Below are positions 40,499 through 61,199 of a DNA stretch of 64,000 nt, piece by piece. Location of the stretch: contig NC_135362.1 in the NCBI RefSeq assembly GCF_051622035.1, positions 25,257,001-25,321,000 of the forward strand, written 5' to 3'. This DNA comes from Arctopsyche grandis. Lineage: Eukaryota > Arthropoda > Insecta > Trichoptera > Hydropsychidae. The notes beneath the pieces are model-generated. The model saw only the letters and a list, made by a program, of their open reading frames with translations. It had not been told where the DNA came from and made no database searches. The position numbers and the translations under genes were made by a program. The stretch's first letter is position 1, and each line of letters opens with the position of its first letter.

Positions 40499-41580
40499 AT
40501 GGAGTGCAGACTTTGCCTTCGTTCTGTTACAGCCGAATCTTCCGTCTCCATCCACGACAATCCTCATCCACTGGTTCAACGTATTTGGACCTTCTGTCAG
40601 CTACAGGTTGGTTACGGTTACATTAATCCCATTACTATCTCATTAGCCAGTCTCGTCACTCACTTCTCACTTGCAGGTAACGAAAAGTGATGGACTGCCA
40701 GATGGGATATGCCTTTCGTGTAATAGTTATCTGGAATTGCTAAGCATCTTTCGAAACGTCTGTCGTCAAAGTAATCAAAAGTCAAAGCTCAGATTAAGTG
40801 AGTGTTTAGATATTAAGCCAAAAGAAGTTTTACTAGAAGATGAAATATGGGAAGATAAGTCGAATGCTAATTCGCCAACAAACGTTTGTATTTCCTCTCA
40901 ATTGTCATCCCACTGTAATGGTATTATACACATTTAAAATATCATTACGTTGTATTTTACAGATGCTTGGAGATGAAGCTACTTTGTATGGTGACAAAGC
41001 GGAATCACGCCATGAAATTAATTTTGAAGATCGCTCGAAATCACACGCCGAAATAAAAACCCACCAATGTGGTGTTTGCTTAAAAACATTTGCTTACAGG
41101 TCTAACCTTCTGATACATGAAAGATCTCACACTGGGGAAAAACCTTACAAATGTGATATTTGTTTAAAATCATTTTCTCAAAAATCTCATCTCGCAATAC
41201 ACGAGAGGACCCATACTGGGGAAAGGCCTTTCAAATGTTGTATTTGTTTTAAATCGTTTGCTTCAAAATCTGATATTATGAGACATGAAAAATCTCATAC
41301 TAGGGAAAAGCTGTTCAAGTGTGATAATTGTTTAGACTCATTTGCTACGAAATCTGAACTATCAACGCACGGACGATCTCATGCCGGACTTAAACTTTAT
41401 AACTGTGATATTTGTTTAAAATCATTTGCTAGAAAATTTAATCTTGTGACACATGAAAGATCCCATACGGGGGAAAGACCGTATTTATGTGTCATTTGTT
41501 GTAAAGCATTTATTACAAAATCTGATCTTGTAAGACATGAAAGATCTCATGCTGGTAGAAAAGCCACACAATTGCGATAA
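40499..41580 (+). CDS. ZAD-C2H2 zinc-finger protein B, finger array cut short by a frameshift
   Basis: Exons 40499-40606 (108 nt), 40677-40883 (207 nt) and 40963-41580 (618 nt) give 310 aa. The ZAD cysteines are present (MECRLC and GICLSC). Exon 3 has six C2H2 fingers. After the sixth, one extra base near 41553 shifts the frame, so the linker reads AGRKATQLR and stops. The alternative frame continues KPHNCDNCLK, clearly the start of a seventh finger that then decays. The protein could still be made with six fingers, or the gene may be on its way out. From 41019 on, the sequence is duplicated at 54552, including the frameshift. Confidence 0.75.
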
Positions 41581-42089
41581 TTGCTTAAAATTACAACAAA
41601 ATCTGGACTTGAAAAATACTAACGATCGCATTCTGGAGTTAAACTGTATAAATGTGATATTTACTTATAATCAAATTGTTAAAAATGTAGTTTGCCAGTT
41701 ATGGGAAATACTAAAGTTATAAACTACTTATATAGGTTTATTTATTATTACTTTTTTATTTATTGATTTTTATTCAATAATTAATAATACATTTAGATAT
41801 CTTTTTAAAGCCCGCTTTAAAGGTTAAAGAATTCGACCCTTAAAGCTCTCAACATTAAGCCCCCCACCAATACTAAATAGATATCTAAAGAGAAATATAA
41901 TTACTCCTAAATAATGCTTAAAATATTCAATGACCAAGTTAACTCACGATTTATTGTTTTAAAGCCTGCAATAAATCGAGGGATTGAATAACAAAATTAT
42001 AAATTTTCATTATTCACTCAGCTAGATCAGCTCTAGGTAGACACGTTTTAATGGCTCAGCAGAAGATCAGCAATAATATGGAGTTTCAC

Positions 42090-42305
42090 TGTAATTGGCA
42101 ATCGCGCGCACATTAATACGGGAGGAAAAGCCTGTTCCTCTTGTTCCCGTTGTATCCTGCTCGCGCAAATTAAGTGAGTATGTACCGTTTACCATGCACC
42201 ATTTTTTTTTTTGATCTTTCGACTTAAGATCTTTCGATTTTCGATCTTTGCCTTCCGATATTTGGGTTTTCTGTCATTTAACATTCTGTCTCGTCACGGT
42301 GACCG
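42090..42305. repeat. Copy of the palindromic MITE nested in the 6750 element
   Basis: Carries the shared segments GGAGGAAAAGCCTGTTCCTC and GATCTTTCGACTTAAGATCT. One terminal arm is degraded. It is duplicated at about 55623-55838. Confidence 0.6.
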
Positions 42306-42599
42306 AATACAATTATATATTAATATTTTACTTTTTATACTTAATAAATTTCTTTAGATGCGAAGTGAGGATAAATCCGAATCCGAATAAAAAACGCGGC
42401 TACAATTTTCTTAAAAACATGAAAATATTTTTTTTCTTTTCTCCCTCCCTTTTTTTTATTTTTCATTAAATTTGATTGAATTCTGAATGTAAATATAGAT
42501 GAAACAGAGAATAACTATAAACATATAAACAATTTCAATTATATCTTCAACTTTAATTTTTACTGGATAATTGACATATTGCATGACTTTTCATGAAAT

Positions 42600-42963
42600 T
42601 TAATTGCGCAAAGTACACCAACTTGTTTTGCCATTTTTTTTTAACAATATCTGTGTGCATCTTAAACTTAATTTACAATCGAAATAAATGCCTAAATACT
42701 TAATATTATCTACTACTTCTACCACTTTCCCATCCATAATCACATCACACACAACGCTTTTATTGCTAACCTCCTTTACGTTCCACATGGTCTTCGTTTA
42801 AGAAGTCATTATTCATCCACATCATCTTTGACTTACTTAAGTTCACTTTCGTTTTATTCTCACATAACCAATCGCTTAAATACTGTAATTCCCTACATAA
42901 AATATCACTCATAACTTGCACATCATCACCTACAATATAAACTAACGTATCATCCGCAAACAA
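42600..42963 (-). pseudogene. LINE reverse-transcriptase fragment (Jockey/I-like)
   Basis: Two overlapping minus-strand frames read MFADDTLVYIVGDD and, after a shift, KVVEVVDNIKYLGIYFD. These are the catalytic FADD motif and the following conserved IKYLGI segment of a non-LTR reverse transcriptase. The fragment lacks everything upstream and is frameshifted. Confidence 0.75.
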
Positions 42964-42967
42964 ACGG

Positions 42968-43215
42968 ATTGTCCACGGACATTCCTAAATAATTTTAACA
43001 TCAGTCGTATTTGATTCTTGGTGCTCGACGTATATCCGATAAAATCTTCTCTGTTTGTTTATATTACTCGCAAGATGGGCAAGTGCATCGTTAAAAATTG
43101 CTCAATGCAATCAAAAACACAATATACAACATGGGATACAATTTTATGAGTAAATTGATCATTTAGTTCGCATATTATTCAATTAACATCGTGGTTTGAC
43201 AGTTTGTATAGTGTC
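42968..43215 (+). repeat. THAP-like repeat copy
   Basis: About 245 bp shared with 29212-29460 and 56500-56747. At 43075 an ATG opens 24 codons beginning MGKCIVKNCS. This resembles the first C-x4-C half of a THAP zinc finger (the DNA-binding domain of P-element transposases and host THAP proteins). The frame stops after WDTIL. It is probably the first exon of a decayed P-like transposon or THAP gene. Confidence 0.45.
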
Positions 43216-43355
43216 GTTATGGAAAAATATGTACGTATTAGTTTCGAGAAAACACTTCTATTATTGTTACGTTTCTCTGCTGATATCACTTTACAGGTGA
43301 ATTTTTATTCTCGATTCAATTAACGTATTAAGGCACTCAAATACCATTCACTCAC

Positions 43356-43733
43356 CTCGCTATCGTCCGGCGAACCAGAAATGTTTGGTGGATAATTAGC
43401 ACCCGACTCAGTTTCCCATATTAAATCTTCCTCCGGCTTGACTTTCAAATACATGTCTAATTCAACCCTCGACGTTGTGTCACTCCGAAAACAAGCGTTT
43501 CGAAAGCTGTGAAGTAATTCCAGATTGTTGACACAAGAAAGGCATGTCATATCTGGCAGATGGTCCCCTTTCCTAAACTGCAAATGAGAAAGGTATGACG
43601 TTTACGAGGACTAGCGAATTAACAATAGCAACGGTTCCAGTGTAACGTAACTAACCCGCAGCTGACATCAGGTCCAAATACATTGGAGGAGACGAAGGAT
43701 CCTGCTGGAGCAGAGCTGAGACATGCACTCCAT
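43356..43733 (-). pseudogene. Inverted ZAD gene remnant E (ZAD exons only)
   Basis: On the minus strand, exon 1 is 43656-43733 (78 nt, with 30 nt missing compared with paralogues) and exon 2 is 43356-43577 (222 nt). Exon 1 starts ATGGAGTGC but then loses register. It has TGA in place of the conserved TGC codon just before its end, so no full ZAD can be made. Exon 2 still has an open frame, its cysteine pair (MTCLSC), a good acceptor and a strong GTGAGT donor. No zinc-finger exon follows on the minus strand: a LINE scrap and a THAP-like repeat lie there instead. Its start faces gene C head-to-head, 251 bp apart. Confidence 0.85.
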
Positions 43734-43902
43734 TACTCCTTGGGCGGGAGAAGCACAATCCCTAGATGAACACGTTTCAGATGTTCGGATTTGAGAGTCT
43801 TCCCAGATTCACTATTGAATACGACTTGGTTGAAGCAAGTAGTTAGATTAATTAAAGAATATATTAATGTGAAACGTAAAAGAGGTTTGTAAAAAAGTGA
43901 CG

Positions 43903-43935
43903 TGGCCGTAATCCATGTAATTTAGACCACATTCA
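43903..43935 (+). promoter_or_regulatory. Conserved ZAD-gene upstream box (gene C)
   Basis: GCCGTAATCC, then AATTTAGACCACATTCAAAG, ending 50 bp upstream of the ATG. Just before it is GTGAAACGTAAAAGAGGTTT, which is also found at the 3' end of the exon-1 module copies at 46.9, 51.2 and 63.5 kb. Confidence 0.5.
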
Positions 43936-43984
43936 AAGAAGAAAAACTTTTGACAGATCGCGCAATTGTGTATCTTTTTTAAGG

Positions 43985-45910
43985 ATGGAATGTAGGCTTT
44001 GTCTTTGTTCTGCTCCAGCCGAGTCTTCCATCTCTATTCATGACAATCCTCATCCACTGGTTCGACGCATTTGGACATGTTGTCAGCTGCAGGTTAACTA
44101 CACTTACTTTTACCTATGACCATCATTAATCAATACATGCATAGTCATTTTATAATTACGTTTCTCACTTAAATGTAGGTTGGGGAGGATGACGGGTTGC
44201 CAAATACGATATGTGCTTCGTGCGATAGTAATCTGAAATTGCTCAGCAGTTTTCGAAATGTTTGTATACAAAGTAACGAAACGTCGAAACTGAGGTTGAA
44301 TGAATGTTTGGATATCAAACCTGAGGAAGTTCTACTAGAAGATTTGATATGGAAGGATGAGACAGATGTTAATACAATAACAAATGTTTGCAATTCCCAT
44401 GTCGATGACAAGCTAAGTACACAGGAATCGAGTGCCTTACAAAATTGGGCAGACGCCAAAAGAAAAAAACAACGAGACGCTGGACAGGCTTATATATCTA
44501 GAAAAAGCAAAAATCCAGTGCCTTGCAAAATTCCACCAGATCAAGTAAGAAAATGTATAGGTTACTCTCGGTTATCCGCTTTACGGATTATCCGTACATA
44601 AAAGATTTTTTTTATTTTTATTCCATTGTATTTGAATGAAAATATGCGTCTGTAGCGACATTTGAAACAAACGGAATGGTAAGCTCGTAGATTTGTAGCA
44701 TTTGACGATGAGTGAATCTAACCAAGCGAGTTTAGTTTAATTGAGAATATAAATTCACATGAAAAATGACCTCATCCTATGTAAAAATATTGTACATCTT
44801 AAATTATATAACGATTGTTTTATTTTATAGATGCGTGAAGGAATTGCTACTATGTGTGATTACAAAATGGAAATAATTGACAAAGTTGAACATCCATTAC
44901 TGGACACCTGCTCCTCACATTTTGAATTAGGTCATAAAATTAATCTCGCAGATATATCGGAGTCACATGTCGGAGTAAAACTGTGCAAATGTGGCACTTG
45001 CTTTAAGTCATATTCTAAAAAAACTGAACAGGTGACGCATGAAAGATCTCATACTGGGGAAAAGCCGTTTAAATGTAATATTTGTTTTAAATCTTATACT
45101 ATGAAGTCTAGCCTTAGCACACATGAAAAATCTCATACTGGCAAAAAGCCGTACAAATGTGACGTTTGCTTAAAATCGTTTGTTAAAAAAACTCAACTTG
45201 TAATACATGAAAGATCTCATACTGGGGAAAAGCCATTCAAATGTGATATTTGTTTAAAATCATTTACTGAAAAGTCTAACCTTGTTACACATGTAAAATC
45301 TCATCTTAGTGTAAAACCATACAAATGTTCTTTTTGCTTAAAATCGTTTGCTCAAAAATCCAATTCTGTGATCCACGAGAAGTCTCATACTGGGGAAAAG
45401 CTGTACAAGTGTGACATTTGCTTAAAATCATTTGCTTCGAAGTCTAACCTTTCCAGACATAAAATGTCTCACACTGGAGAAAAGCCTTACAATTGTGATT
45501 TTTGCCTTAAATCGTTTGCCAATAAACGTGAACTTGCGATTCATCAAAGATTCCATACTGGGGAGAAACCATACAAATGTGATATTTGCCTAAAATCGTT
45601 CGTTTCGAAATCTATCCTCGTGAGACATAGAAAAACTCATACTGGGGAAAAGCCGTACAAGTGCGATGATTGTTTAAAATCATTTGCTACAAAATCTGAC
45701 CTATTAATTCATGTAAGATCTCATACTGGGGAAAAACCGTATAAATGCGATATTTGCTTAAACTCATTTACTAAAAATTTTCATCTTTCTGAGCATATGA
45801 AATCTCATATTGGGGTAAAACCTCACAAATGTGACATTTGTTTAAAATCCTTTGCTCAAAAATCTAATCTTGTGGTTCATAGAAGATCTCATAATGGCGA
45901 AAACCCGTGA
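43985..45910 (+). CDS. ZAD-C2H2 zinc-finger protein C (11 fingers)
   Basis: Exons 43985-44092 (108 nt), 44179-44544 (366 nt) and 44831-45910 (1,080 nt) give 517 aa with phase-0 introns. Exon 2 is longer than in A and B because it uses a later GTAAGA donor, which adds a basic Lys/Arg-rich linker after the acidic ZAD tail. ZAD cysteines: MECRLC and TICASC. Exon 3 has eleven C2H2 fingers with conserved linkers. The first starts KCGTC after a short Cys-containing leader, and the last ends HNGENP and stop. Intact by inspection. Role: a predicted nuclear DNA-binding factor, target unknown. The front half is duplicated nearly identically in C'. Confidence 0.9.
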
Positions 45911-46640
45911 AAATGTATGTGATATTTGCTTAAAATCATATACCCAAAAGTCTCACCTTTCTAGACTAACATACATACATATATGCCTATAGGGGTTAAA
46001 CTGCATAGTTTTGATATTTTGATATTTGAATTATTTACTACCAAATCTGAGCTCGTGAAATATGAAACATCTTACAGTGGCGGAAAAACCATATAAATGT
46101 GATCAAATTAATTCCCATAAAATTCAAGTCAAGGCTATTCAGACTTAAGATTTGTAGATATGTATTTTTTTCAATTAATTTCCATAAAAAAAATTCAGAC
46201 TTTGTAGATATGTATTTTTTCCACTGTTACATTTGAATAAAACTAAAATTAAATTTTGTGCTTAGTATAATACCTGCTTCGAAGAATAATAACAAACTAA
46301 TGTTTTGCAGTACATTTTAATTCTTATAAAAATCAATTAACAAATTTTTAATAAAAGATCCAATAATTAAAAAAATGTGTAATTTATTTTTACCGTTCGT
46401 TTCATTTTTGAATATCTTTAGAGTATTAATACAGAATATCGCATATATGTACATATGTATATATTATACCTAACATATTGAACTGATGTAGACAAATCAT
46501 TAAAATTTAATTAAACTTACTTTCAATATTTTGTATTTTTATTTATTAATACATACACGAAACTAATAAAATGTAAATATTTTGCGTAGAAGATTTATTA
46601 AATATCAGGTCTCTCAGTTTGACCTAAACGTAAGAATTAT
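45911..46640. other. Degenerate finger sequence and AT-rich 3' flank of gene C
   Basis: After the gene C stop, finger-like scraps (CDICLKSYTQKSHLS in one frame near 45920-45965) and a decayed repeat unit continue to about 46110. This shows the array was once longer. The rest is AT-rich with AATAAA-type signals. The region is about 90% similar to 59107-59480. Confidence 0.6.
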
Positions 46641-46900
46641 TATTTTGAATAAAAACACCAATATTTTTTTTACTACCGCCATCTATGTATAAAATTAATG
46701 ACTACCAACTGTCACCGAGATTAAAAATCTTCAGACCTGAAATGCTTGTTATACGATATTTTATCTCTCGTAATGGCGGAGGCTCCATTTACTTATATTG
46801 ATGACCAAAATGAGCAATATGGCAAAGTATGAAAACGATCGGATAAGTGGCAACATTTTTCCTGAATTGTAATCGTAAGTGAAACGTAAAGGAGGTACGT
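46641..46900 (+). repeat. Exon-1 module copy 1
   Basis: About 260 bp shared with 50931-51198 and 63221-63484. It holds an ATG at 46773 opening MAEAPFTYIDDQNEQYGK, followed exactly by GTATGA, a plausible splice donor in phase 0. No matching second exon was found downstream before the LINE, so this copy is probably orphaned. Confidence 0.6.
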
Positions 46901-47099
46901 AATAAAAAGTAGTACACTGGCTATGTATGTACATTGGTGAGTCACTCTTAGTAATTAATTATTAAGTTAAAACAATAAATGTGAAATTAGACTTGAAGTA
47001 GCTTGAGTTTTTAACGACATCCCGGATAATATATAACCGATATATTGAATAGTAACCATGTGCATCCATTCGTGAACTTGATAGAAAGTTAGCACCGCT

Positions 47100-47146
47100 T
47101 AAAAAAGGATGTGAAACTTGGACTTTGAACGTCAAGATGTTGGAAT
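47100..47146 (+). mobile_element. RTE-like LINE fragment
   Basis: GGATGTGAAACTTGGACTTT followed by GAACGTCAAGATG matches the coding sequence of the intact LINE at 47239-50207. It is broken off by sequence beginning GGAATATAGCG, which is itself tandemly repeated (47145-47190 and 47191-47238). Confidence 0.7.
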
Positions 47147-47225
47147 ATAGCGCAACTTGATGATGATTTTATCTATTTCCCTATTTTTATTGGAATATAG
47201 CGCAACAAAGTTGATGATTTTATCT

Positions 47226-47238
47226 ATTTCCCCTGTTT
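47226..47238. repeat. Target-site duplication, left copy
   Basis: ATTTCCCCTGTTT, identical to 50443-50455. It abuts the 3' (TGA)n tail of the LINE. Confidence 0.9.
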
Positions 47239-50200
47239 CATCATCATCATCATTTACAGCCATTCGCCATCCACTGCTGGATGAAGGCCTCTCCAACACG
47301 CTTCCACTCGTCTCTGTTTTGCGCAACACTCATCCATCTCATTCCGCACATTTTCCTAATTTCGTTCACCCATCTTCCTTGCGGTCTTCCTTTTACTCTT
47401 TTGCCTTCTCTCGGGTACCATTCAAGCACTTCTTTTGTCCACCTTTCGTCCATCCTCCTAGCTACGTGACCCGCCCATTGCCATTTCAATCTCTTCACTC
47501 TATCCACTATGTCCACTACCCTTGTCATATTTCTCACCCACGTGTTCCGCTTTCTGTCTTTCCTCGTTATGCCAAGCATACAGCGTTCCATACTTCTTTG
47601 AGTGCATTGGATTTTATTTAGCATCTTGGCGTTCAGTGTCCAAGTTTCACATCCATACGTCATCACTGGCAAAACGCATTGATCAAAGATCCTTTTCTTC
47701 AGGCAGAGTGGCATTTTTGATTTAAAAACAGCATTCATCCGTCCAAATGCACTCCATCCTAATTTCATACGTCTCTTTATCTCTTCATTTTTACTACCAG
47801 ACATGTCAATTATTTGACCTAAATATAAATAACTATTTACTACTTCTACTGGTTTATCATCTAAGGGGATGCTATCAGGCATGCAATAACTATTGAACAT
47901 TAGTTTAGTCTTATCTACGTTAATTTTTAATCCTACTTTTCTACTTTCCCTGTCCAGCTGTGTTAGTCTAATAAGTAGGTCAGCTGAATCACGAGCTACT
48001 AAAACTATATCGTCTGCGAACCGAAGGTGACTCAAAAAGCGACCATTGATGCTTACTCCGGCTGTATCCCAATCCAAGTTCCTGAAAACTCCCTCAAGCA
48101 CCGCATTGAATAACTTGGGCGAGATTGTATCTCCTTGTCTTACTCCTTTTCCTATGCTAAATCTATCTGTACCTGAAAAAATTTTAACCGAAGCTGTGGC
48201 ATTCTTATATATTGCAGCTAACAGTCCCACATAGGGTTCCGGCACTCCCTGTGTTTGTAGAGCGTTAAGTACTGCATTATGACTAACTGTATCGAAGGCT
48301 TTCTCATAATCGACGAAACCTAGGCACAATGGCCGTTGATATTCGTTGGCGCGCTCGATTAGTTCGCCAACTACTTGGAGGTGGTCCATTGTGCTGAAAT
48401 TTGCCCTAAACCCTGCCTGCTCTATAGGTTGGTTCTCGTCGAGGATATTCTTCAGCCTTTCTGTAATAACCTTCGTGAAGAGCTTGTAGACCGCTGAAAG
48501 TAAACTAATGGGTCGGTAGTTCTTGATATCGCTTTTGTCGCCTTTTTTGTGTATTAAAATGATAGTTGCGTTATTCCATCCTTCTGGTATAGCTTGGTTC
48601 TGGATGCATTTGCTGAAAAGCCTAGCTAAGATATTAATTAGGGGGGGGCCGCCACATTTTAGTAAGTCAATGGGAATATTATCTTCCCCTGGGGTTTTAC
48701 CGTTTTTTGCAGTTTTTAGCGCGGCCTCTACTTCGCTAGGCAATACTGCAGGAACCCTTTGGCCATGTGTCGATTCCGGAGCGGGAAATTGACCGTTGTT
48801 GTTCTCGTAAAGTTTTGCATAGAACGTATAAACTCTGTCTACGATCTCTTCTCTATTCCTAATTATTACTCCGCTCTCTGATCTGATTGCGATCATTTGG
48901 TTTTTGCCTAAGAAAAGATCTTGTTTGCACTTTTTCAGGCTACGGTTATTCTTAATGGTATTTTCTATTAGCTTGCTGTTAAAATCCCTGACATCCCTGA
49001 CTATTCTCTTCTTAATTTCCTTATTTACTAGATTGTATTCTTGCTTATTATTATCCCTATCTAACTTCCTTTTATGCTTAATTAGATTTTTGGTTTCCTC
49101 TGAAATTTTGCTTAGCTTAATCTGTTTCCTGAGTCCAACTAATTTCTTACCTGTTGAGGTTAGAACCGAACTAATTACAGTGTTCAATTCCTCGATGTCT
49201 GCTTCTGGGTTCAATTTCCCGTATCGATTTCCAAGTTCGAGTTCGAATTCCTTTTTCCTAGACCTTAGTTGAGCGAAATCTGGAGAGTTACTGCATCCTT
49301 TTATTAATTTCCTACGTTCGCAATTTATATTAATGGCCATCCTGGCACGGACTAATCTGTGATCGCTACCTATATCTACTTTACTTAAAACACTAACGTC
49401 TTTAACGGAGTGCAGGGCATTTGTTAGGATGAAATCGATTTCGTTTCTGTCTCCTTTAGGACTCTCCCAAGTCCACTTATTGTTGGTGTTTTTCCTGAAA
49501 AATGAATTAGTGATAAAGAGCCTGTTGTGTTCTGCGAATTCTATGAGGCGATCGCCTCTGTCGTTTCTTTGGCGGGTACCAAAATTGCCTACTGCTCTTT
49601 CTGTGTTTGCCTTTTGTCCTATTTTTGCGTTAAAGTCGCCCATGATTATTTTAAAGTGGTGGCGGCTATTATCGTATGCGCCCTGTAGTTTTTCGTAGAA
49701 GTCTTCTATTTCCTCGTCTGGGTGGCTAGATGTGGGGGCGTACACTTGGAAGATTTGACAAGTGTACCTGCTCGAGATTCTTAATACTACATAGCATATA
49801 CGTTCCGATATGTCGTTTATTTCTATAATATTTCTTTCTATTCTCTTATTGATAAGAAACCCTACTCCTCCTATTCTACCATTTGGTAGCCCTCTCCAGT
49901 AGAGACAATTACCACTTTTTAGGATTATTTGGTTTTCCTGTTTTCGTCTTACTTCGCTAAGTCCTACTAAATCCCATTTGATACTTTCTAATTCACTCTC
50001 TAATGCAAGCACACTTCCTTCACTCGATAACGTTCTTACATTGTACGTGGCTAAATACAGGTTTCTATTAGCTAAGCTATCATCCATCGTCACTCTTACC
50101 TTGTTGGAGGTTTGGATATTATTTTTCTCGCATTTATCCAAGATGTGTTGAGAAAAAGGCGGTACTTGAGAGAGATTTCCATTCAAGGAGTGAGTTCTTA

Positions 50201-50335
50201 CCGCCATAGACTCTTCTCTGTGGTCAGCTTTGACAGATAGTCATCCTAGGTATCACTTGGATCACTTATGAGTTATTACATGCCATTTAACAGGGTTACT
50301 TTGTAAGTGATAGTAGTTAGTTATGATAATGGTAG
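47239..50335 (-). mobile_element. RTE-like non-LTR retrotransposon with intact ORF
   Basis: On the minus strand: a 5' leader of about 128 nt (50335-50208), then one ORF, then a tail of TGA repeats ending at 47239. It is bounded on the 3' side by the target duplication, and on the 5' side it is fused to a U6 sequence. The ORF stop codon is the first TGA of the tail, so there is essentially no 3' UTR, as known for RTE-clade elements. Older 5'-truncated relatives lie at 47100, 51203-51700 and 60335-61140. Confidence 0.9.
47250..50207 (-). CDS. LINE polyprotein: AP endonuclease and reverse transcriptase (985 aa)
   Basis: The N-terminal half is an apurinic endonuclease-like domain (about residues 50-300), with TYNVRTL, SEVRR, IMGDFNAKIG and SDHRLV in order. 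The reverse transcriptase (about 500-780) shows NYRPISLLS, FVDYEKAFDTV, RQGDTISPKLF and the catalytic box LRFADDIVLV. A C-terminal region typical of RTE-group elements follows (GCETWTLN, WQWAGHVARR and GRPQGRW). No stop or frameshift interrupts it, and all catalytic motifs are present. The enzyme would nick chromosomal DNA and copy its own RNA into the site. It lies in the opposite orientation to the surrounding zinc-finger genes. The start is the first ATG of the frame; the first 40 residues are not conserved-looking, so a later start is possible. Confidence 0.92.
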   Translation of the reverse strand: MAVRTHSLNGNLSQVPPFSQHILDKCEKNNIQTSNKVRVTMDDSLANRNLYLATYNVRTLSSEGSVLALESELESIKWDLVGLSEVRRKQENQIILKSGNCLYWRGLPNGRIGGVGFLINKRIERNIIEINDISERICYVVLRISSRYTCQIFQVYAPTSSHPDEEIEDFYEKLQGAYDNSRHHFKIIMGDFNAKIGQKANTERAVGNFGTRQRNDRGDRLIEFAEHNRLFITNSFFRKNTNNKWTWESPKGDRNEIDFILTNALHSVKDVSVLSKVDIGSDHRLVRARMAININCERRKLIKGCSNSPDFAQLRSRKKEFELELGNRYGKLNPEADIEELNTVISSVLTSTGKKLVGLRKQIKLSKISEETKNLIKHKRKLDRDNNKQEYNLVNKEIKKRIVRDVRDFNSKLIENTIKNNRSLKKCKQDLFLGKNQMIAIRSESGVIIRNREEIVDRVYTFYAKLYENNNGQFPAPESTHGQRVPAVLPSEVEAALKTAKNGKTPGEDNIPIDLLKCGGPPLINILARLFSKCIQNQAIPEGWNNATIILIHKKGDKSDIKNYRPISLLSAVYKLFTKVITERLKNILDENQPIEQAGFRANFSTMDHLQVVGELIERANEYQRPLCLGFVDYEKAFDTVSHNAVLNALQTQGVPEPYVGLLAAIYKNATASVKIFSGTDRFSIGKGVRQGDTISPKLFNAVLEGVFRNLDWDTAGVSINGRFLSHLRFADDIVLVARDSADLLIRLTQLDRESRKVGLKINVDKTKLMFNSYCMPDSIPLDDKPVEVVNSYLYLGQIIDMSGSKNEEIKRRMKLGWSAFGRMNAVFKSKMPLCLKKRIFDQCVLPVMTYGCETWTLNAKMLNKIQCTQRSMERCMLGITRKDRKRNTWVRNMTRVVDIVDRVKRLKWQWAGHVARRMDERWTKEVLEWYPREGKRVKGRPQGRWVNEIRKMCGMRWMSVAQNRDEWKRVGEAFIQQWMANGCK

Positions 50336-50386
50336 AAAAAATGTGGAACGCTTCACGATTTTGCGTGTCATCCTTGCGCAGGGGCC

Positions 50387-50425
<39 letters not shown>

Positions 50426-50442
50426 CCCAGCCGAAGCAGGAC
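50336..50442 (-). ncRNA. U6: U6 spliceosomal RNA sequence, retrotransposed
   Basis: The minus strand carries a full-length U6 snRNA. It has a 5' stem with a UUCG loop (GTCCTGCTTCGGCTGGGC), CATATACTAAAATTGG, the ACAGAGA box that pairs with the 5' splice site, the AGC triad, the conserved internal stem-loop and the terminal ATTTTTT. The body looks unmutated. The 5' stem differs from the common insect form but still pairs. It is not a normal U6 locus: the base before its first nucleotide is already the target-site duplication, so no upstream pol III promoter (PSE or TATA) came with it. It is joined to the LINE on the same strand. Confidence 0.93.
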
Positions 50443-50455
50443 ATTTCCCCTGTTT
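50443..50455. repeat. Target-site duplication, right copy
   Basis: ATTTCCCCTGTTT, identical to 47226-47238. It directly abuts the first nucleotide of the U6 sequence. Confidence 0.9.
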
Positions 50456-50483
50456 ACAGATATATAATTACATCATCGCGTCC

Positions 50484-50910
50484 TGTACGAACACGTAAAG
50501 TCAACCGTGACCGAAATACCTTCGTTTAAACTAAATCAAAGACACCATCAACTCACTGCAGATACGCAATCACGACACGGAAACCCCCGGAGACGATGAT
50601 CTCACTACATAGCTGCGTAGCAACCAAAATTTGAGGCACTCAAAGGATAACCTCGACCCCGTAGGAATCTTCCAGAATATAATCTCACCAGCCAAGCTAC
50701 GCGTTGCACAATCAACTAGTATATAAACCAGCGCATCATCCCCAAATGCCAGTGAGCTTCATAAGCTCAACCGGCTCACTCCTCCGAAGCAACTACCTGT
50801 ATTAACTGAGTAACACACCTGTATTAACTGAGTAATAAAGATCCTCTTTCAAACACACGTGTTTATATAGGCTGGAACACAGTCAAGATACTTCTCCTGC
50901 CTTAATACAA
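50484..50910 (+). mobile_element. Diverged LTR-like segment related to family L
   Basis: It begins TGTACGAACACG and contains a TATATAAACC promoter-like box near 50720 and AATAAAG near 50834. It shares stretches with family L around the cap-site region (CTCACT, CTCCGAAGC). I could not define a target duplication, so the ends are approximate. Confidence 0.45.
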
Positions 50911-50930
50911 TAATTTGTATATAAAATTAT

Positions 50931-51198
50931 GATTTTGAATAAATACACCAATATTTTTTTTTCTACCGCCATATATGTTTAAAACTAATAAACAAACGTC
51001 ACCGAGTATCTCGCCGGGCAGATTTGAAAAGCTTCTTAAACGATATTTTATCTCTATCGTAATGGCGGAGGATCCATTAACTTATATTGATGACCAAAAT
51101 GAGCAATATGGCAAAGTATGAAAACGATCGGATAAGAGGAAAATTTTTTCCTGAATTGTAATCGTAAGTGAAACGTAAAGGAGGTATGTAAAAAAAGT
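50931..51198 (+). repeat. Exon-1 module copy 2
   Basis: Homologous to 46641-46900 and 63221-63484. ATG at 51062 opens MAEDPLTYIDDQNEQYGK followed by GTATGA. Two residues differ from the other copies, and the frame and donor are kept. Confidence 0.6.
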
Positions 51199-51202
51199 CC
51201 AG

Positions 51203-51700
51203 TGTACTCACAAAACTATGGAATGCTGTATGCTCGGCATAACGAGGACAGATAATAAGCGGAAAACGTGGGTGAGAAGTATAACAAGGGTATTGAATAT
51301 AGTGAAGAGATTGATATGGCAATAGGTAGGTCGGTTCGGTGATTACTGGTCACAAAGTACTCGGTGATTACTGGTCACAAAGTAACGTATAAGTCCATCA
51401 TATTAACAATAACTATCATAGTAACGAGAACTTGAATGCCAAATATTGTGTATTCGGGATTTTCATGGCAAAAATTGTCTTTGTGACCACCGCCATGTGA
51501 TGAATAGTCCAATTACCAAGTAGGTCATGTATCTAGAAAAATGTACAAAGTTCTAGAAAGGTACCCGAGAGAATTTAAAGGCGTGAAAGGAAGATGGGTA
51601 GACGAAATCAGAAAAATGTGTGGGGTGAGATAGACGAGAGTTGCACAAAGGAGACAAATGGAAGTGTTTTGGAGAGTTGTCGTGTTGGCATGTCATTGCC
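51203..51700 (+). mobile_element. Decayed RTE-like LINE 3' fragment, split by a MITE
   Basis: 51203-51332 matches the intact LINE around its CMLGITRKDRK region. 51527-51700 matches the part around EVLEWYPRE to the end. The MITE at 51333-51519 separates them, with a GTAGGTC repeat on each side. Stops and frameshifts are present. Confidence 0.8.
51333..51519. repeat. MITE family M1 copy inside the LINE fragment
   Basis: Starts GGTTCGGTGATTACTGGTCA (its first part is tandemly repeated) and contains the M1 core in inverted form. It ends near CTTTGTGACC and ATGAATAGTCCAATT. It is flanked by GTAGGTC at 51326-51332 and 51520-51526, consistent with a 7-8 bp target duplication. Confidence 0.8.
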
Positions 51701-51814
51701 TTCGTCCAAGCTGTTAAGCTGTCTAGATATTAGTTAACTTATAATAAGATGCTGTTTCTACTTTAACATCGACGTTTAGATGCTAGTAAATCAATAAAAT
51801 AAATGACTTGGACA

Positions 51815-51846
51815 TAGCTGTGAACTGTGCGATCTAGACCAAATCT
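51815..51846 (+). promoter_or_regulatory. Conserved ZAD-gene upstream box (gene D)
   Basis: AGCTGTGAACT, then TCTAGACCAAATCTGAGGA, ending about 45 bp upstream of the ATG. Confidence 0.5.
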
Positions 51847-51890
51847 GAGGAAGAGAAAGTCTTTAACGGCTTCTCATTTCTCATCTCGTG

Positions 51891-53821
51891 ATGGAGTGCA
51901 GACTTTGCCTTTGTTCTGCTCCAGCCGAGTCGTCCGTCTCCATTCGTGATAATCCTCATCCACTGGTTCAATGCCTTTGGACCTGCTGTCAGCTGCGGGT
52001 CAGTTGTTATTACTTTTGACCTGTTGTCGTCCCATTGTCATTGTCATGTCAGTATCATCAATGCCGTTCTCATTTGCAGGTTGAAAAAGATGACGGGTTA
52101 CCAGATTCGGTATGCCTTTCATGTAATAGGAAATTGGAACGGCTCAACAGTTTTCGAAACGTTTGCCTTCAGAGTAACGCTAAATCGAAACTGAGGTCTA
52201 ATGAGTGTTTGGATATAAAGCCGGAAGAAATTTTACTGGAAGACTTAATATGGGAAGATGAGTTGCGTGTTGGTTCACTACCAAATGTTTGGAAAACCCC
52301 ACTCAATGACAAAATGCATGAACGAGAATCGAGTGTCGTAGAACAGAACGACTCTAAGCACAACGTCAATCAAATAGAAAATATAAATTCACCGGTAGAG
52401 TGAATTCATATCCCATTTAATAATATTATAAACATTGAAAGTTGGATAACGTTCATATTATTTTACAGATGCATGGAGGAAAAGTTACACCATGTGAGGA
52501 CGAAGTGGAAATAATTGACAAAATTGAACAGCCATTACCGAAAACATCTGATGACGCATATTCCACACATTTAGATTTAGATCTTAAAATTAGCACCGAA
52601 GATGTATCGAAATCACATGCCGGAGTAAAACCGTTCAAATGTGGCACATGTTCAAAATCATTTGTTAAAAAACATAACCTTGTGACACATGAAAGATCTC
52701 ACACTGGGGAAAAACCATATAAATGTGGTATTTGCTCAAAATCATATACTTCAAAATTTAGCCTCTCCATACATGAAAAATCTCATACTGGGGAGAAACT
52801 GTACAAATGTGAAATTTGTCCAAAATCATTTATGGCTAAATCTAGCCTTTCCATGCATGAAAGATATCATTCCGGGGAAAAGCCGTTCAAATGTAATATT
52901 TGTTTGAAAGCATTTGCTCAAAAATTTGCATTTGTCCGGCATGAAAGATCTCATACTGGGGAAAAGCCTTACAAATGTGATATTTGCTTGAAATCGTTTA
53001 ATACAAGTTCTTACCTTGCCAAACATGAAATATGTCATACTGTAGAAAAGCACTATAAATGTGATCTTTGTTTAAAAACATTTACTCAAAAATCTTCGTT
53101 TGAACGACATGGAAGATCTCATACCGGGGAAAAACCGTATAAATGCGACATTTGTTTTAAATCATTCGTTGATAAATATTACCTCGCTGCACACATGCAA
53201 TCTCATTTTGGCGTAAAAGCACACAAATGTGAAATTTGTTTAAAATCATTTCTTGTAAAAGCTGCCCTTTCAAGACATCAAATATCTCATAACGGGGAAA
53301 AACTATACGAATGTGATATTTGCTTGAAATCATTTATTACAAAATCTTACCTTGCAAGACATAAAATATTTCATACTGGGGAAAAGCCGTACAAATGTGA
53401 TGTTTGCTTAAAATCATTTACTGCAAAGTCCAGCCTTACTACACATAAAATGTCTCATACTGGGGAAAAGCCATACAAATGTGAAGTTTGTTTAAAATCA
53501 TTTGTTAAAAATACTCATCTGGTTATACACGAAAGAACTCATACTGGGGAAAAGCCGTACAAATGTGATGTCTGTTTAAAAGCATTTGCTAAAAAGTCTA
53601 AACTTGTTGCGCATGTGCAATCTCATCTTAGTGTAAAACCACACAAATGCTCAGTTTGTTCGAAATCATTTGCTCAAAAATCAAATCTTGTGATACATGA
53701 AAGATCTCATACTGGGAAAAAGTCGTACAGATGTTACATCTGTTTAAAATCATTTGCTCAAAAATTCATACTAATGAGACATTATAAATCACACAATGAA
53801 ATAACCATGCTAATGTCTTAA
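51891..53821 (+). CDS. ZAD-C2H2 zinc-finger protein D (14 fingers)
   Basis: Exons 51891-51998 (108 nt), 52080-52394 (315 nt) and 52469-53821 (1,353 nt) give 591 aa, with phase-0 introns. The ZAD cysteines are in MECRLC and SVCLSC. Exon 2 is read through to a GTAGAG donor at 52395, which adds an acidic/polar linker. An earlier GTTTGG donor after LPN, like the one used in A and B, is an alternative. Exon 3 encodes fourteen consecutive C2H2 fingers with TGEKP-type linkers, the longest array in the window. It ends after finger 14 with a short hydrophobic tail. No frameshift was found. It is a predicted nuclear DNA-binding factor of unknown target. Confidence 0.9.
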
Positions 53822-54531: not shown

Positions 54532-55113
54532 ATGGACAACCAATCAACCAATAATTTTGAAGATCGCTCGAAATCACACGCCGAAATAAAAACCCACCAA
54601 TGTGGTGTTTGCTTAAAAACATTTGCTTACAGGTCTAACCTTCTGATACATGAAAGATCTCACACTGGGGAAAAACCGTACAAATGTGATATTTGTTTAA
54701 AATCATTTTCTCAAAAATCTCATCTCGCAATACACGAGAGGACCCATACTGGGGAAAGGCCTTTCAAATGTTGTATTTGTTTTAAATCGTTTGCTTCAAA
54801 ATCTGATATTATGAGACATGAAAAATCTCATACTAGGGAAAAGCTGTTCAAGTGTGATAATTGTTTAGACTCATTTGCTACGAAATCTGAACTATCAACG
54901 CACGGACGATCTCATGCCGGACTTAAACTTTATAACTGTGATATTTGTTTAAAATCATTTGCTAGAAAATTTAATCTTGTGACACATGAAAGATCCCATA
55001 CGGGGGAAAGACCGTATTTATGTGTCATTTGTTGTAAAGCATTTATTACAAAATCTGATCTTGTAAGACATGAAAGATCTCATGCTGGTAGAAAAGCCAC
55101 ACAATTGCGATAA
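54532..55113 (+). pseudogene. Headless copy of gene B exon 3 (B')
   Basis: A 193-codon frame starting at an ATG unrelated to gene B, then identical to B from NFEDRS onward: six C2H2 fingers and the same frameshift-generated end AGRKATQLR. There is no ZAD, acceptor or ZAD-gene upstream box in front; the sequence before it is SINE-like and AT-rich. It exists because the duplication began within exon 3. It could in principle be translated as a bare six-finger protein, but nothing supports a promoter. Confidence 0.8.
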
Positions 55114-56092
55114 TTGCTTAAAATTACAACAAAATCTGGACTTGAAAAATACTAACGATCGCATTCTGGAGTTAAACTGTATAAATGTGATATTTACTTA
55201 TAATCAAATTGTTAAAAATGTAGTTTGCCAGTTATGGGAAATACTAAAGTTATAAACTACTTATATAGGTTTATTTATTATTACTTTTTTATTTATTGAT
55301 TTTTATTCAATAATTAATAATACATTTAGATATCTTTTTAAAGCCCGCTTTAAAGGTTAAAGAATTCGACCCTTAAAGCTCTCAACATTAAGCCCCCCAC
55401 CAATACTAAATAGATATCTAAAGAGAAATATAATTACTCCTAAATAATGCTTAAAATATTCAATGACCAAGTTAACTCACGATTTATTGTTTTAAAGCCT
55501 GCAATAAATCGAGGGATTGAATAACAAAATTATAAATTTTCATTATTCACTCAGCTAGATCAGCTCTAGGTAGACACGTTTTAATGGCTCAGCAGAAGAT
55601 CAGCAATAATATGGAGTTTCACTGTAATTGGCAATCGCGCGCACATTAATACGGGAGGAAAAGCCTGTTCCTCTTGTTCCCGTTGTATCCTGCTCGCGCA
55701 AATTAAGTGAGTATGTACCGTTTACCATGCACCATTTTTTTTTTTGATCTTTCGACTTAAGATCTTTCGATTTTCGATCTTTGCCTTCCGATATTTGGGT
55801 TTTCTGTCATTTAACATTCTGTCTCGTCACGGTGACCGAATACAATTATATATTAATATTTTACTTTTTATACTTAATAAATTTCTTTAGATGCGAAGTG
55901 AGGATAAATCCGAATCCGAATAAAAAACGCGGCTACAATTTTCTTAAAAACATGAAAATATTTTTTTTCTTTTCTCCCTCCCTTTTTTTTATTTTTCATT
56001 AAATTTGATTGAATTCTGAATGTAAATATAGATGAAACAGAGAATAACTATAAACATATAAACAATTTCAATTATATCTTCAACTTTAATTT

Positions 56093-56495
56093 TTACTGGA
56101 TAATTGACACATTGCATGACTTTTCATGAAATTTAATTGCGCAAAGTACACCAACTTGTTTTGCCATTTTTTTTAACAATATCTGTGTGCATCTTAAACT
56201 TAATTTACAATCGAAATAAATGCCTAAATACTTAATATTATCTACTACTTCTACCACTTTCCCATCCATAATCACATCACACACAACGCTTTTATTGCTA
56301 ACCTCCTTTACGTTCCACATGGTCTTCGTTTAAGAAGTCATTATTCATCCACATCATCTTTGACTTACTTAAGTTCACTTTCGTTTTATTCTCACATAAC
56401 CAATCGCTTAAATACTGTAATTCCCTACATAAAATATCACTCATAACTTGCACATCATCACCTACAATATAAACTAACGTATCATCCGCAAACAA
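56093..56495 (-). pseudogene. LINE reverse-transcriptase fragment, duplicate
   Basis: Copy of the fragment at 42600-42963 with one base fewer in the T run. It carries the same FADD motif and frameshift. Confidence 0.75.
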
Positions 56496-56499
56496 ACGG

Positions 56500-56747
56500 A
56501 TTGTCCACGGACATTCCTAAATAATTTTAACATCAGTCGTATTTGATTCTTGGTGCTCGACGTATATCCGATAAAATCTTCTCTGTTTGTTTATATTACT
56601 CGCAAGATGGGCAAGTGCATCGTTAAAAATTGCTCAATGCAATCAAAAACACAATATACAACATGGGATACAATTTTATGAGTAAATTGATCATTTAGTT
56701 CGCATATTATTCAATTAACATCGTGGTTTGACAGTTTGTATAGTGTC
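56500..56747 (+). repeat. THAP-like repeat copy, duplicate
   Basis: Copy of 42968-43215, with the same 24-codon MGKCIVKNCS frame starting at 56607. Confidence 0.45.
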
Positions 56748-56887
56748 GTTATGGAAAAATATGTACGTATTAGTTTCGAGAAAACACTTCTATTATTGTT
56801 ACGTTTCTCTGCTGATATCACTTTACAGGTGAATTTTTATTCTCGATTCAATTAACGTATTAAGGCACTCAAATACCATTCACTCAC

Positions 56888-57265
56888 CTCGCTATCGTCC
56901 GGCGAACCAGAAATGTTTGGTGGATAATTAGCACCCGACTCAGTTTCCCATATTAAATCTTCCTCCGGCTTGACTTTCAAATACATGTCTAATTCAACCC
57001 TCGACGTTGTGTCACTCCGAAAACAAGCGTTTCGAAAGCTGTGAAGTAATTCCAGATTGTTGACACAAGAAAGGCATGTCATATCTGGCAGATGGTCCCC
57101 TTTCCTAAACTGCAAATGAGAAAGGTATGACGTTTACGAGGACTAGCGAATTAACAATAGCAACGGTTCCAGTGTAACGTAACTAACCCGCAGCTGACAT
57201 CAGGTCCAAATACATTGGAGGAGACGAAGGATCCTGCTGGAGCAGAGCTGAGACATGCACTCCAT
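56888..57265 (-). pseudogene. Inverted ZAD gene remnant E' (duplicate of E)
   Basis: Exon 1 at 57188-57265 and exon 2 at 56888-57109 on the minus strand. It carries the same deletion and TGA nonsense codon as E, so the decay predates the duplication. Confidence 0.85.
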
Positions 57266-57516
57266 TACTCCTTGGGCGGGAGAAGCACAATCCCTAGATG
57301 AACACGTTTCAGATGTTCGGATTTGAGAGTCTTCCCAGATTCACTATTGAATACGACTTGGTTGAAGCAAGTAGTTAGATTAATTAAAGAATATATTAAT
57401 GTGAAACGTAAAAGAGGTTTGTAAAAAAGTGACGTGGCCGTAATCCATGTAATTTAGACCACATTCAAAGAAGAAAAACTTTTGACAGATCGCGCAATTG
57501 TGTATCTTTTTTAAGG

Positions 57517-59106
57517 ATGGAATGTAGGCTTTGTCTTTGTTCTGCTCCAGCCGAGTCTTCCATCTCTATTCATGACAATCCTCATCCACTGGTTCGACGC
57601 ATTTGGACATGTTGTCAGCTGCAGGTTAACTACACTTACTTTTACCTATGACCATCATTAATCAATACATGCATAGTCATTTTATAATTACGTTTCTCAC
57701 TTAAATGTAGGTTGGGGAGGATGACGGGTTGCCAAATACGATATGTGCTTCGTGCGATAGTAATCTGAAATTGCTCAGCAGTTTTCGAAATGTTTGTATA
57801 CAAAGTAACGAAACGTCGAAACTGAGGTTGAATGAATGTTTGGATATCAAACCTGAGGAAGTTCTACTAGAAGATTTGATATGGAAGGATGAGACAGATG
57901 TTAATACAATAACAAATGTTTGCAATTCCCATGTCGATGACAAGCTAAGTACACAGGAATCGAGTGCCTTACAAAATTGGGCAGACGCCAAAAGAAAAAA
58001 ACAACGAGACGCTGGACAGGCTTATATATCTAGAAAAAGCAAAAATCCAGTGCCTTGCAAAATTCCACCAGATCAAGTAAGAAAATGTATAGGTTACTCT
58101 CGGTTATCCGCTTTACGGATTATCCGTACATAAAAGATTTTTTTTATTTTTATTCCATTGTATTTGAATGAAAATATGCGTCTGTAGCGACATTTGAAAC
58201 AAACGGAATGGTAAGCTCGTAGATTTGTAGCATTTGACGATGAGTGAATCTAACCAAGCGAGTTTAGTTTAATTGAGAATATAAATTCACATGAAAAATG
58301 ACCTCATCCTATGTAAAAATATTGTACATCTTAAATTATATAACGATTGTTTTATTTTATAGATGCGTGAAGGAATTGCTACTATGTGTGATTACAAAAT
58401 GGAAATAATTGACAAAGTTGAACATCCATTACTGGACACCTGCTCCTCACATTTTGAATTAGGTCATAAAATTAATCTCGCAGATATATCGGAGTCACAT
58501 GTCGGAGTAAAACTGTGCAAATGTGGCACTTGCTTTAAGTCATATTCTAAAAAAACTGAACAGGTGACGCATGAAAGATCTCATACTGGGGAAAAGCCGT
58601 TTAAATGTAATATTTGTTTTAAATCTTATACTATGAAGTCTAGCCTTAGCACACATGAAAAATCTCATACTGGCAAAAAGCCGTACAAATGTGACGTTTG
58701 CTTAAAATCGTTTGTTAAAAAAACTCAACTTGTAATACATGAAAGATCTCATACTGGGGAAAAGCCATTCAAATGTGATATTTGTTTAAAATCATTTACT
58801 GAAAAGTCTAACCTTGTTACACATGTAAAATCTCATCTTAGTGTAAAACCATACAAATGTTCTTTTTGCTTAAAATCGTTTGCTCAAAAATCCAATTCTG
58901 TGATCCACGAGAAGTCTCATACTGGGGAAAAGCTGTACAAGTGTGACATTTGCTTAAAATCATTTGCTTCCAAGTCTAACTTTACAAGACATAAAATATC
59001 TCACACTGGAGAGAAGCCTTACAAATGTGACATCTGTTTAAAATCCTTTGCTCAAAAGTCTAATCTTGTGGCTCATGGAAGATCTCATAATGGCGATAAC
59101 CCGTGA
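57517..59106 (+). CDS. ZAD-C2H2 zinc-finger protein C' (7 fingers)
   Basis: Exons 57517-57624, 57711-58076 and 58363-59106 give 405 aa. The first two exons and fingers 1 to 5 look identical to gene C, including the upstream box (57435-57467). Identity ends inside finger 6. From there the sequence is only about 90% like gene C and jumps to the equivalent of C's last finger, so C' has seven fingers instead of eleven. It ends HNGDNP and stop, in frame. This is a chimera of a fresh copy of C's front and an older paralogue's tail. The reading frame is intact and the gene could be expressed from the copied promoter. Confidence 0.85.
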
Positions 59107-59479
59107 AAATGTGATATTTGCTTAAAAGTCTCACCTTTCTAGACTTACATATATTCCTATAAAGGTTAAAATGCATAGATTTTGACATGTTTTAAATTAT
59201 TTACTACAAAATCTGAGCTCGTAAAATATGAAACATCTTATTATACACCGGCGGAAAATCCATATAAATGTGATCAAATTAATTCCCATAAAATTCAAGT
59301 CAAGCCTATTCAGACTTAAGATTTGTAGATATGTATTTATTTTTTCCACTGTTACAATTGAATGAAACCAAAATTAAATTTTGTGCTTAGAATAATAATA
59401 AAAAACTAATGTTTTGCAGTAGATTTTAATTTTAATAAAAATCAATTAACAAATTATTAATAAAAGATCCAATAATTTA

Positions 59480-60330
59480 AAAAATGTATAAATTATTACT
59501 TTATCTACATATGTACGTAGTAACAATAGATTTTTGCCTTTTTTTTTTGATTTTTAACTCGAAATTTTGACTGATTCGAAACTCAGAATCGATCACTGAT
59601 CTGATCTAGAAAAAATGAGTGTGTCTGTGTATTTTGGGGATTCTTTGAACACCGTTAGTCCTATCGAACTGAAACTTAGTATTGGTTAATGAAATTCTTA
59701 TTGACACAAAGTAAATTTTTAAGTTGACCGGAAATGGTACCTCCCCTTATAGGTGTCCTCTTTTTTTTTAAGTTTTTGAATTCAATTATCTCCCAAACCG
59801 CTAACTGAATCGGACTGAATTTTTTTTACATGTAATATAAATTATAAATTTTATAACTTAATATATTATGAATATTTTTACCTGAACCGGAAGTAGTACT
59901 TTTACTCTGGAGAATCGAGGTTTTTTATGTTTTTCTCAGAAACCTTTTGGTTTATTGAACTGAAATTTCATATCTAGAATTTTAAGCTTAATACTAAGTT
60001 ACCTATAAAATTTGGAAAGCATCCGTCAACCGAAAGTGGCAGTTGACTCTTGTTCGATTTTTCTTCCACTACTTTTTTCGACCCCTTAAACATGTGTGCT
60101 CTTTTCGAAAAAATTCAAGTATAATTCTTGTATCAATGTGATGAAAATAAAAATAATCACTAAGTTTAATAAACCTTAAAAAAAATTCCTAAGATTTTTT
60201 CGTTGAAATTGCTCGAGTTTTTAACGACATCCCTGATAATATATTACCAATATATTGAATAGCAACCAGGTGCACGCATTCGTGCACTTGACCAAAAGTG
60301 GGCACCGTTTAAAAAAGTAAAAAAAGGATG
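59480..60330. other. AT-rich intergenic sequence
   Basis: No gene or clear repeat terminus. 60210-60330 is about 85-90% similar to 46990-47100, which also precedes an RTE fragment. The shared flank is therefore likely part of the same older repeat. Confidence 0.5.
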
Positions 60331-60334
60331 TGAA

Positions 60335-61140
60335 ACTTGGACATTGAACGTCAATATGCTACACAATGTCCGTAAAAATGTTAGCAAAATTTTATCCCAT
60401 AGCCAAATTTATCGACTGACACAATCTGCATCACGCCTTAGAGCGTATGCATGTCCAATGCACTCATAAAACTATGGAACGCTGTATGCTCGGCATAACA
60501 AGGAAGTATAACAAGGGTAGTGGATAAATTGGAAAGAGTGAAGAGATTGATATGGCAATAAGTGGGTCCAATGGCGGATCAAGTAAATGGGGGGGCCCCA
60601 GGCGTATTTAAAATTTGAGGTCCCCACTTGAGTAAAAAAAAAATGCTATCGTTTTTTACCATGCTTTTTCATTGGGATTTTACAAAATCATATTTTTTTA
60701 TTTATTTACTAACGGTTTTTGGAATAAAATAGATACTATTTTAAATACTAGATACTATTTAATACTATGTAAAATAGGTATTAATTTATTCTTGGCTTAC
60801 GATCGTATTGTGAACAATGATAATAATTTGTAAGTTGTAAATTTTGGTAGAACAGGTCCATTTCGGGGGCCCCAAGCGCGCGCTTATTTTCAATGTATGA
60901 TAAACCGCCGCTGAGTGGATCTTGTATCTAGAATAATGGACAAAGGAAGTGCTAGAATGGTACCCGAGAGAATGTAAAGGTGTGAAAGTAAAGCCACAAG
61001 GAAGATGGGTAGACGACATTAAGAGAATGTGTGGAGTGAGATAGGCGAGATTTGCACCAAACAGACGAGTGGAAGTGTGTTGTAGAGTTCGTGCATTCAT
61101 CCAGCAGTGGATGATGAGCGGCTGTAAATGACGATGACGA
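60335..61140 (+). mobile_element. Decayed RTE-like LINE 3' copy, split by a hAT MITE
   Basis: Matches the intact LINE's C-terminal coding region from GGATGTGAAACTTGG to the end, GGCTGTAAATGACGATGACG. It thus preserves the natural 3' terminus with a variant tail. The MITE at 60569-60913 interrupts it. Frameshifted and 5'-truncated. Confidence 0.8.
60569..60913. mobile_element. hAT-like MITE (345 bp)
   Basis: Starts CAATGGCGGATCAAG and ends with the complement of CAGCGGCGGTTTA, flanked by AGTGGGTC (60561-60568) and AGTGGATC (60914-60921), an 8-bp duplication with one change. It is an uninterrupted relative of the element at 8666-9976. Confidence 0.85.
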
Positions 61141-61199
61141 TAGATAGATAAATGGTAAACGGGTTACGTCGCAAAAGTCAATCGCTACCAAGATAACTG

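Follow-up and report, generated by a model that had tools for sequence, protein, structure and literature searches.

A U6 snRNA retrocopy fused to an RTE-like LINE and inserted with it as one unit in Arctopsyche grandis (Trichoptera)

Introduction

SINEs with heads derived from small RNAs (e.g., 7SL) consist of a small RNA joined to a LINE-related end. These SINEs multiply as families, whereas no retrotransposed progeny of the U6-LINE chimera described here was detected in the assembly.

Chimeras of U6 with RTE, L2 and L1 elements have been published for vertebrates; U6 is joined to the RTE-like element RTEX-2 in Anolis (three lizard copies) and to L2 in platypus and Anolis (PMC4476161). For the human U6/L1 chimeras, both a template jump and a prior ligation have been proposed (PMC13174262; PMC13247085), and Doucet et al. 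explained inverted snRNA/L1 chimeras by twin priming (PMC4476161). No U6/LINE chimera of an insect was found in the open-access literature, searched by titles and the beginnings of abstracts.

The chimera of A. grandis belongs to the kind already published in vertebrates, here in an insect. Like the mammalian U6/L1 chimeras (PMC13174262, PMC4476161), it has a full-length sense U6 directly fused at the 5' end of a LINE, a single target-site duplication (TSD) and a putative T/A nick; unlike them, it has an RTE-like partner whose ORF is whole and whose tail consists of (TGA)n and not of poly(A), and its host is an insect. With the Anolis RTEX-2 and the platypus and Anolis L2 chimeras (PMC4476161), it shares the joining of U6 to a non-L1 LINE, but the host lineage and the RTE-like family are different, and here the ORF is intact and a paralogous empty site is present. 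A second locus of the same genome (L017), with an inverted, 3'-truncated U6 (bases 1-67) beside a short LINE 3' end, resembles the inverted snRNA/L1 chimeras (PMC4476161), although its partner is an RTE-like LINE and not L1. The U6/RTE-like chimera is cleanly documented by its TSD and its paralogous empty site, and the same genome probably holds a second event, of the inverted type. This supports the published view that U6 capture is a general habit of LINEs and not a peculiarity of mammalian L1.

Results and Discussion

Structure of the chimera

The window, i.e. the whole stretch of 64,000 nucleotides that was analysed, was placed at C8:25257001-25321000 of the 475.7-Mb assembly (189 contigs, denoted by C). 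On its minus strand the parts follow each other in the order 13-mer, U6 (50442-50336), LINE (50335-47239), 13-mer:

47226-47238, minus strand: 3' copy of the 13-bp TSD, AAACAGGGGAAAT in LINE sense, exact match to 50443-50455
47239-50335, minus strand: RTE-like LINE of 3,097 bp, 5'-truncated within the 5'UTR (~604 of 3,701 bp missing)
47239-47252, minus strand: (TGA)n tail, its first TGA being the ORF stop codon (from the sequence and the ORF coordinates)
47250-50207, minus strand: ORF of 985 amino acids with APE-type endonuclease (PF03372) and reverse transcriptase (PF00078)
50208-50335, minus strand: final 128 bp of the 5'UTR of the LINE family; upstream it stops at the U6 junction, short of the 5' end of the family
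50336-50442, minus strand: full-length U6 retrocopy, sense to the LINE (RF00026, 112.6 bits)
50443-50455, minus strand: 5' copy of the 13-bp TSD, directly before U6 base 1; a single 13-mer is present in the empty site L060

A sequence-only reading of this DNA had described a full-length U6 fused upstream of the LINE on the same strand, an unbroken ORF of 985 codons in the LINE, and an identical 13-mer after the (TGA)n tail and before U6, and all three descriptions were confirmed. The Rfam model RF00026 matched 50337-50442 (minus strand) with 112.6 bits over model positions 1-105 of 105; if one extra T is counted, the U6 start lies at 50336. U6 is complete at both ends, stands in sense directly 5' of the LINE sequence and ends with six T, the last of which can be assigned to either U6 or the LINE, i.e. 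the overlap at the junction (U tail to ..AAT|CTA..) is at most one T. The 13-mer ATTTCCCCTGTTT has two exact occurrences in the 64 kb, both on the plus strand (at 47226 and 50443), with a probability at a given place of 2.0e-8 calculated from base composition. A single exact 13-bp TSD therefore encloses U6 and the LINE together.

The LINE was also said to keep a 5' leader (50208-50335). The ORF is indeed whole, but this leader represents only the last 128 bp of a 5'UTR of 719-732 bp (measured in six distinct copies), and the element is 5'-truncated. Compared to the full-length copy L012 (3,701 bp, first bases GAGTTCGG), the window LINE aligns from about position 605, so that ~604 bp of the 5'UTR are missing, while the ORF is kept.

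Empty site and duplication of the locus

With both flanks joined over a single 13-mer as query (40 of 226 candidate places scored), a paralogous empty site (L060) was found at C8:25339261-25339546, with 95% identity over all 278 bases of the query. The alignment is continuous across the insertion point and contains one 13-mer, but neither U6 nor the LINE. Because this site has one 13-mer and neither part, U6 and the LINE arrived as one unit. The earlier proposal of a joint insertion is thus borne out by both the shared TSD and the paralogous empty site, and an empty site with a single 13-mer, named there as a possible check, does exist. What speaks against our reading is that this site is a paralogue, neither an allele nor an orthologue. 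The insertion is also lacking in four relatives of the target repeat that are more distant, but so is the exact 13-mer. Window positions 50456-50600, together with L061-L064, show that the target lies within an interspersed repeat; beyond the C8 array, 35 more places with 75-89% identity were present among the 40 scored.

A second U6-LINE copy, 100% identical over 3,375 bp, is located 21.6 kb downstream in a segmental duplication, its TSD, U6 and leader being at C8:25328820-25329067. The duplication spans window positions 44778-52388 with an overall identity of 98.9%, and all 83 differing alignment columns fall in 44750-46499, none of them in the insertion. The identical second copy goes back to tandem duplication and does not represent another retrotransposition.

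A C2H2 zinc-finger gene cluster is tandemly duplicated in the window (41019-45751 and 54552-59274, 97.8%), and the surroundings of the chimera are duplicated again downstream. Judged from its ORFs, the DNA probably carries zinc-finger genes of the ZAD type, which would be in line with an insect host. Diverged LINE-related pieces are found around the insertion (46993-47139, 51189-51332, 51548-51676 and 60326-61141); those matching the LINE run in the orientation opposite to it.

Proposed mechanism of the fusion

The chimera is almost certainly the product of a single retrotransposition event, i.e. of target-primed reverse transcription during which a LINE cDNA, truncated at its 5' end, was prolonged along U6 RNA. 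The endonuclease of the RTE-like LINE would have nicked the strand reading ATTTCCCCTGTTT/ACAG; the cut site TGTTT/A resembles the L1 consensus TTTT/A (PMC4476161). The reverse transcriptase, probably primed at the tail, would then have started at the (UGA)n tail of the LINE RNA and copied the entire ORF, up to a point 128 nt ahead of the start codon, after which a full-length U6 RNA would have served as template from its U tail to base 1. Repair would have left one 13-bp TSD around both parts, and the tandem duplication of the locus would later have copied the insertion. As the first 604 bp of the family 5'UTR are missing, where an internal promoter would be expected, the fused element has presumably lost its promoter. 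Of the two origins proposed from the sequence alone, these observations fit the template switch after nearly full-length copying, or an equivalent event that joined the two RNAs. The similarity between the divergence of the LINE (1.4-1.9%) and that of U6 (2/107 differences) is a weak argument in the same direction.

The second fusion, at C3:15209705 (L017:1469-1567), bears on the passage from the LINE to U6. Here, U6 bases 1-67 lie inverted, directly beside 32 bp matching the LINE 3' end (an 18-bp (TGA)n-type tail preceded by ~14 bp; 27 bp are exact compared to the window LINE). This LINE piece, which is only 32 bp long, may originate from the same or a closely related family. GACAATATAT is present on both sides of L017 (two bases longer, if the GC common to U6 is counted), but the target also holds a longer repeat, and the TSD is less clean than at the window locus. 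The arrangement fits twin priming; in that case, U6 RNA would have been free to serve as a template at the target site.

Alternatively, U6 could have been joined to a cleaved LINE RNA by an RtcB-type ligation, and the resulting chimeric RNA then reverse transcribed. This mechanism is published (PMC13174262; PMC13247085), and a U6 with a complete U tail, joined end-to-end to an internal LINE position, would be in line with it. However, the overlap of at most one nucleotide at the junction is not decisive, as one shared T does not discriminate between a template jump and RNA ligation, and for L017 a separate U6 RNA template seems necessary. Furthermore, no ribozyme was present among the matches up to E 1 in four family loci, i.e. 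there was no sign of a self-cleaved 5'-OH end: all 51 matches obtained with L011, L012, L024, L042 and the empty site L060 belonged to microRNA-type or snoRNA families and were below the gathering scores. Ligation by an RtcB-type enzyme is a serious but only tentative explanation, and the reading of any pre-made U6-LINE ligated RNA has a slightly less than even chance. A template jump by the reverse transcriptase at the target is slightly favoured, because L017 points to U6 RNA having been at hand as a template in its own right, and we consider it rather probable. A LINE that lacks poly(A) could serve to tell a template jump from RNA ligation.

Origin and status of the U6 part

A nucleotide search with the window U6 gave seven matches (7/7 candidates scored), namely the chimera, its duplicate and five pieces on C10, C3 and C1 (three), whereas the Rfam U6 model resulted in six matches over the cut-off (48 of 46,477 candidates scored). 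No U6 in the assembly scores higher than that of the window, and the 44-base U6 core is intact only in the chimera and the duplicate (one mismatch in one other match, three in another). At the loci on C3, C10 and C1:18752972, the 5' stem is fully paired (GTCCTGC..GCAGGAC), and C1:26223664 possesses the same second half of this stem. The window U6 has GCTGGGC where the other loci have GCAGGAC, i.e. two differences in 107 bases, both in the 5' stem. No functional-looking (parent) U6 gene was found in the assembly with either the U6 sequence or the Rfam model; a working U6 gene seems to be missing from it, perhaps because it was not assembled.

In the same assembly, three U4 matches over the cut-off (two of them strong) and two U6atac matches were found. 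CCAAG lies at -57 in both U6atac genes and at -67 in the U4 on C13; TATATA lies at -29 or -31 in the former and at -31 in the latter. The U4 on C1 lacks both elements at these positions. No clear shared 18-mer emerged as an upstream motif common to the U4 and U6atac genes. Upstream of the window U6, only TATATA is present (at -24), and CCAAG is absent within 120 bp. In our view, the window U6 is a retrocopy without a promoter; for this, the empty site is a stronger argument than the promoter comparison, which is thin.

It is very improbable that the LINE was inserted just downstream of a pre-existing U6 gene or pseudogene in an event of its own. The high score of the window U6, its intact core (shared only with the duplicate) and the TATATA 24 bp upstream might be expected for such a gene, but the 13-mer encloses both parts, the bases before the LINE (..CATTTTTT) differ from those after the tail, the empty-site paralogue carries the same flank without U6, and the CCAAG element of the U6atac genes is absent upstream. 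The placement of the TSD and the empty site led us to reject this scenario. We give hardly any credit to the idea that the window U6 is a working gene which happens to sit on a LINE: although no intact 44-base core exists in the assembly besides this one and the duplicate, the three loci on C3, C10 and C1:18752972 have a different, fully paired stem, and the sequence upstream of U6 is pre-existing target DNA without the CCAAG found in U6atac genes. Both the 5' stem difference and the upstream sequence make this unlikely.

At four further U6-derived loci (L015, L016, L018 and L019), no flanking direct repeat of at least 6 bp was detected in the 40 bp upstream and 60 bp downstream, and no LINE 3' end was present among the matches listed within 1.5 kb of the four other U6-derived loci, where only TA-repeat matches appeared. 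Two of the six distinct U6-derived loci (duplicate excluded) would have arisen independently by fusion with the RTE-like LINE described here, which targets mainly (TA)n, or with one closely related to it; a template switch would account for the window locus and twin priming for L017. It is conceivable, though we put it forward with considerable reserve, that LINE ribonucleoproteins preferentially take up U6, and do so far outside vertebrates and L1. If true, this affinity for U6 would be an ancient and general property of the LINE machinery.

The LINE family and its 5' end

The family was surveyed with a query consisting of TSD, U6 and leader, which gave 828 candidate places; among the 40 scored, two matched in full (the locus and its duplicate) and 38 matched the leader only, 37 of the latter on contig C1. 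In all 38 leader-only copies, the match to the full-length L012 continues upstream past the U6 junction for at least 31 bp, i.e. 0/38 of those examined begin with U6 and all run into their own 5'UTR. The second origin proposed from the sequence alone, a LINE lineage that took over U6 as its 5' end and now spreads in this form, could point to the two identical U6-LINE copies, but is practically without prospect, as both copies share their flanks (the second lying within the segmental duplication), U6 is absent from 38/38 other leader copies examined, and only seven U6 matches were found genome-wide, of which just the locus and its duplicate have U6 joined to the leader. Several independent copies starting with U6 were found neither among the 40 scored of the 828 candidates nor in the genome-wide U6 search. 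Because the relatives run into their own 5'UTR and the only other such copy lies in a tandem duplication, U6 is not the 5' end of the family, and we reject it as a family head.

The window LINE has one ORF with APE endonuclease and reverse transcriptase, but no RNase H (Pfam, E 0.001), and practically no 3'UTR, the stop codon being the first TGA of (TGA)n. The three frames of the L012 5'UTR contain only short open stretches. The clade label RTE-like is based on this architecture; a comparison of the ORF with solved structures (PDB) listed R2, L1 and other reverse transcriptases, which do not separate the clade. A search for relatives of the ORF in viral contigs gave three pattern matches, none of them confirmed. 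The reading frame comprises at least 985 codons in 23/38 loci (simple search for the MAVR start), i.e. an intact ORF is ordinary for this family. The window LINE is 96.4-98.6% identical to its relatives (33 alignments >2.5 kb), and its divergence is 1.4-1.9% in 30/33 of these alignments.

The family resides mainly within (TA)n microsatellites. Among the 26 one-piece full-length copies from the 38 loci (mostly on C1), 24 have at least one TA-rich flank (defined as ≥80% TA/AT steps), 23 on the 5' side and 16 on the 3' side, whereas the U6 chimera was inserted off the (TA)n target. A (TA)n-specific RTE was not found in the open-access literature searched. Most family copies share the 5' end GAGTTCGG, and many have TGATG|ATATAT at the 3' side. 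Full-length copies L011, L024, L025, L041 and others carry one additional G before GAGTTCGG, as expected if a capped transcript was copied to its end. L024 (flanked by ATACAATATTT), L033 and L042 lie outside (TA)n and have short duplications of the ordinary kind; L033 is 5'-truncated at position 560.
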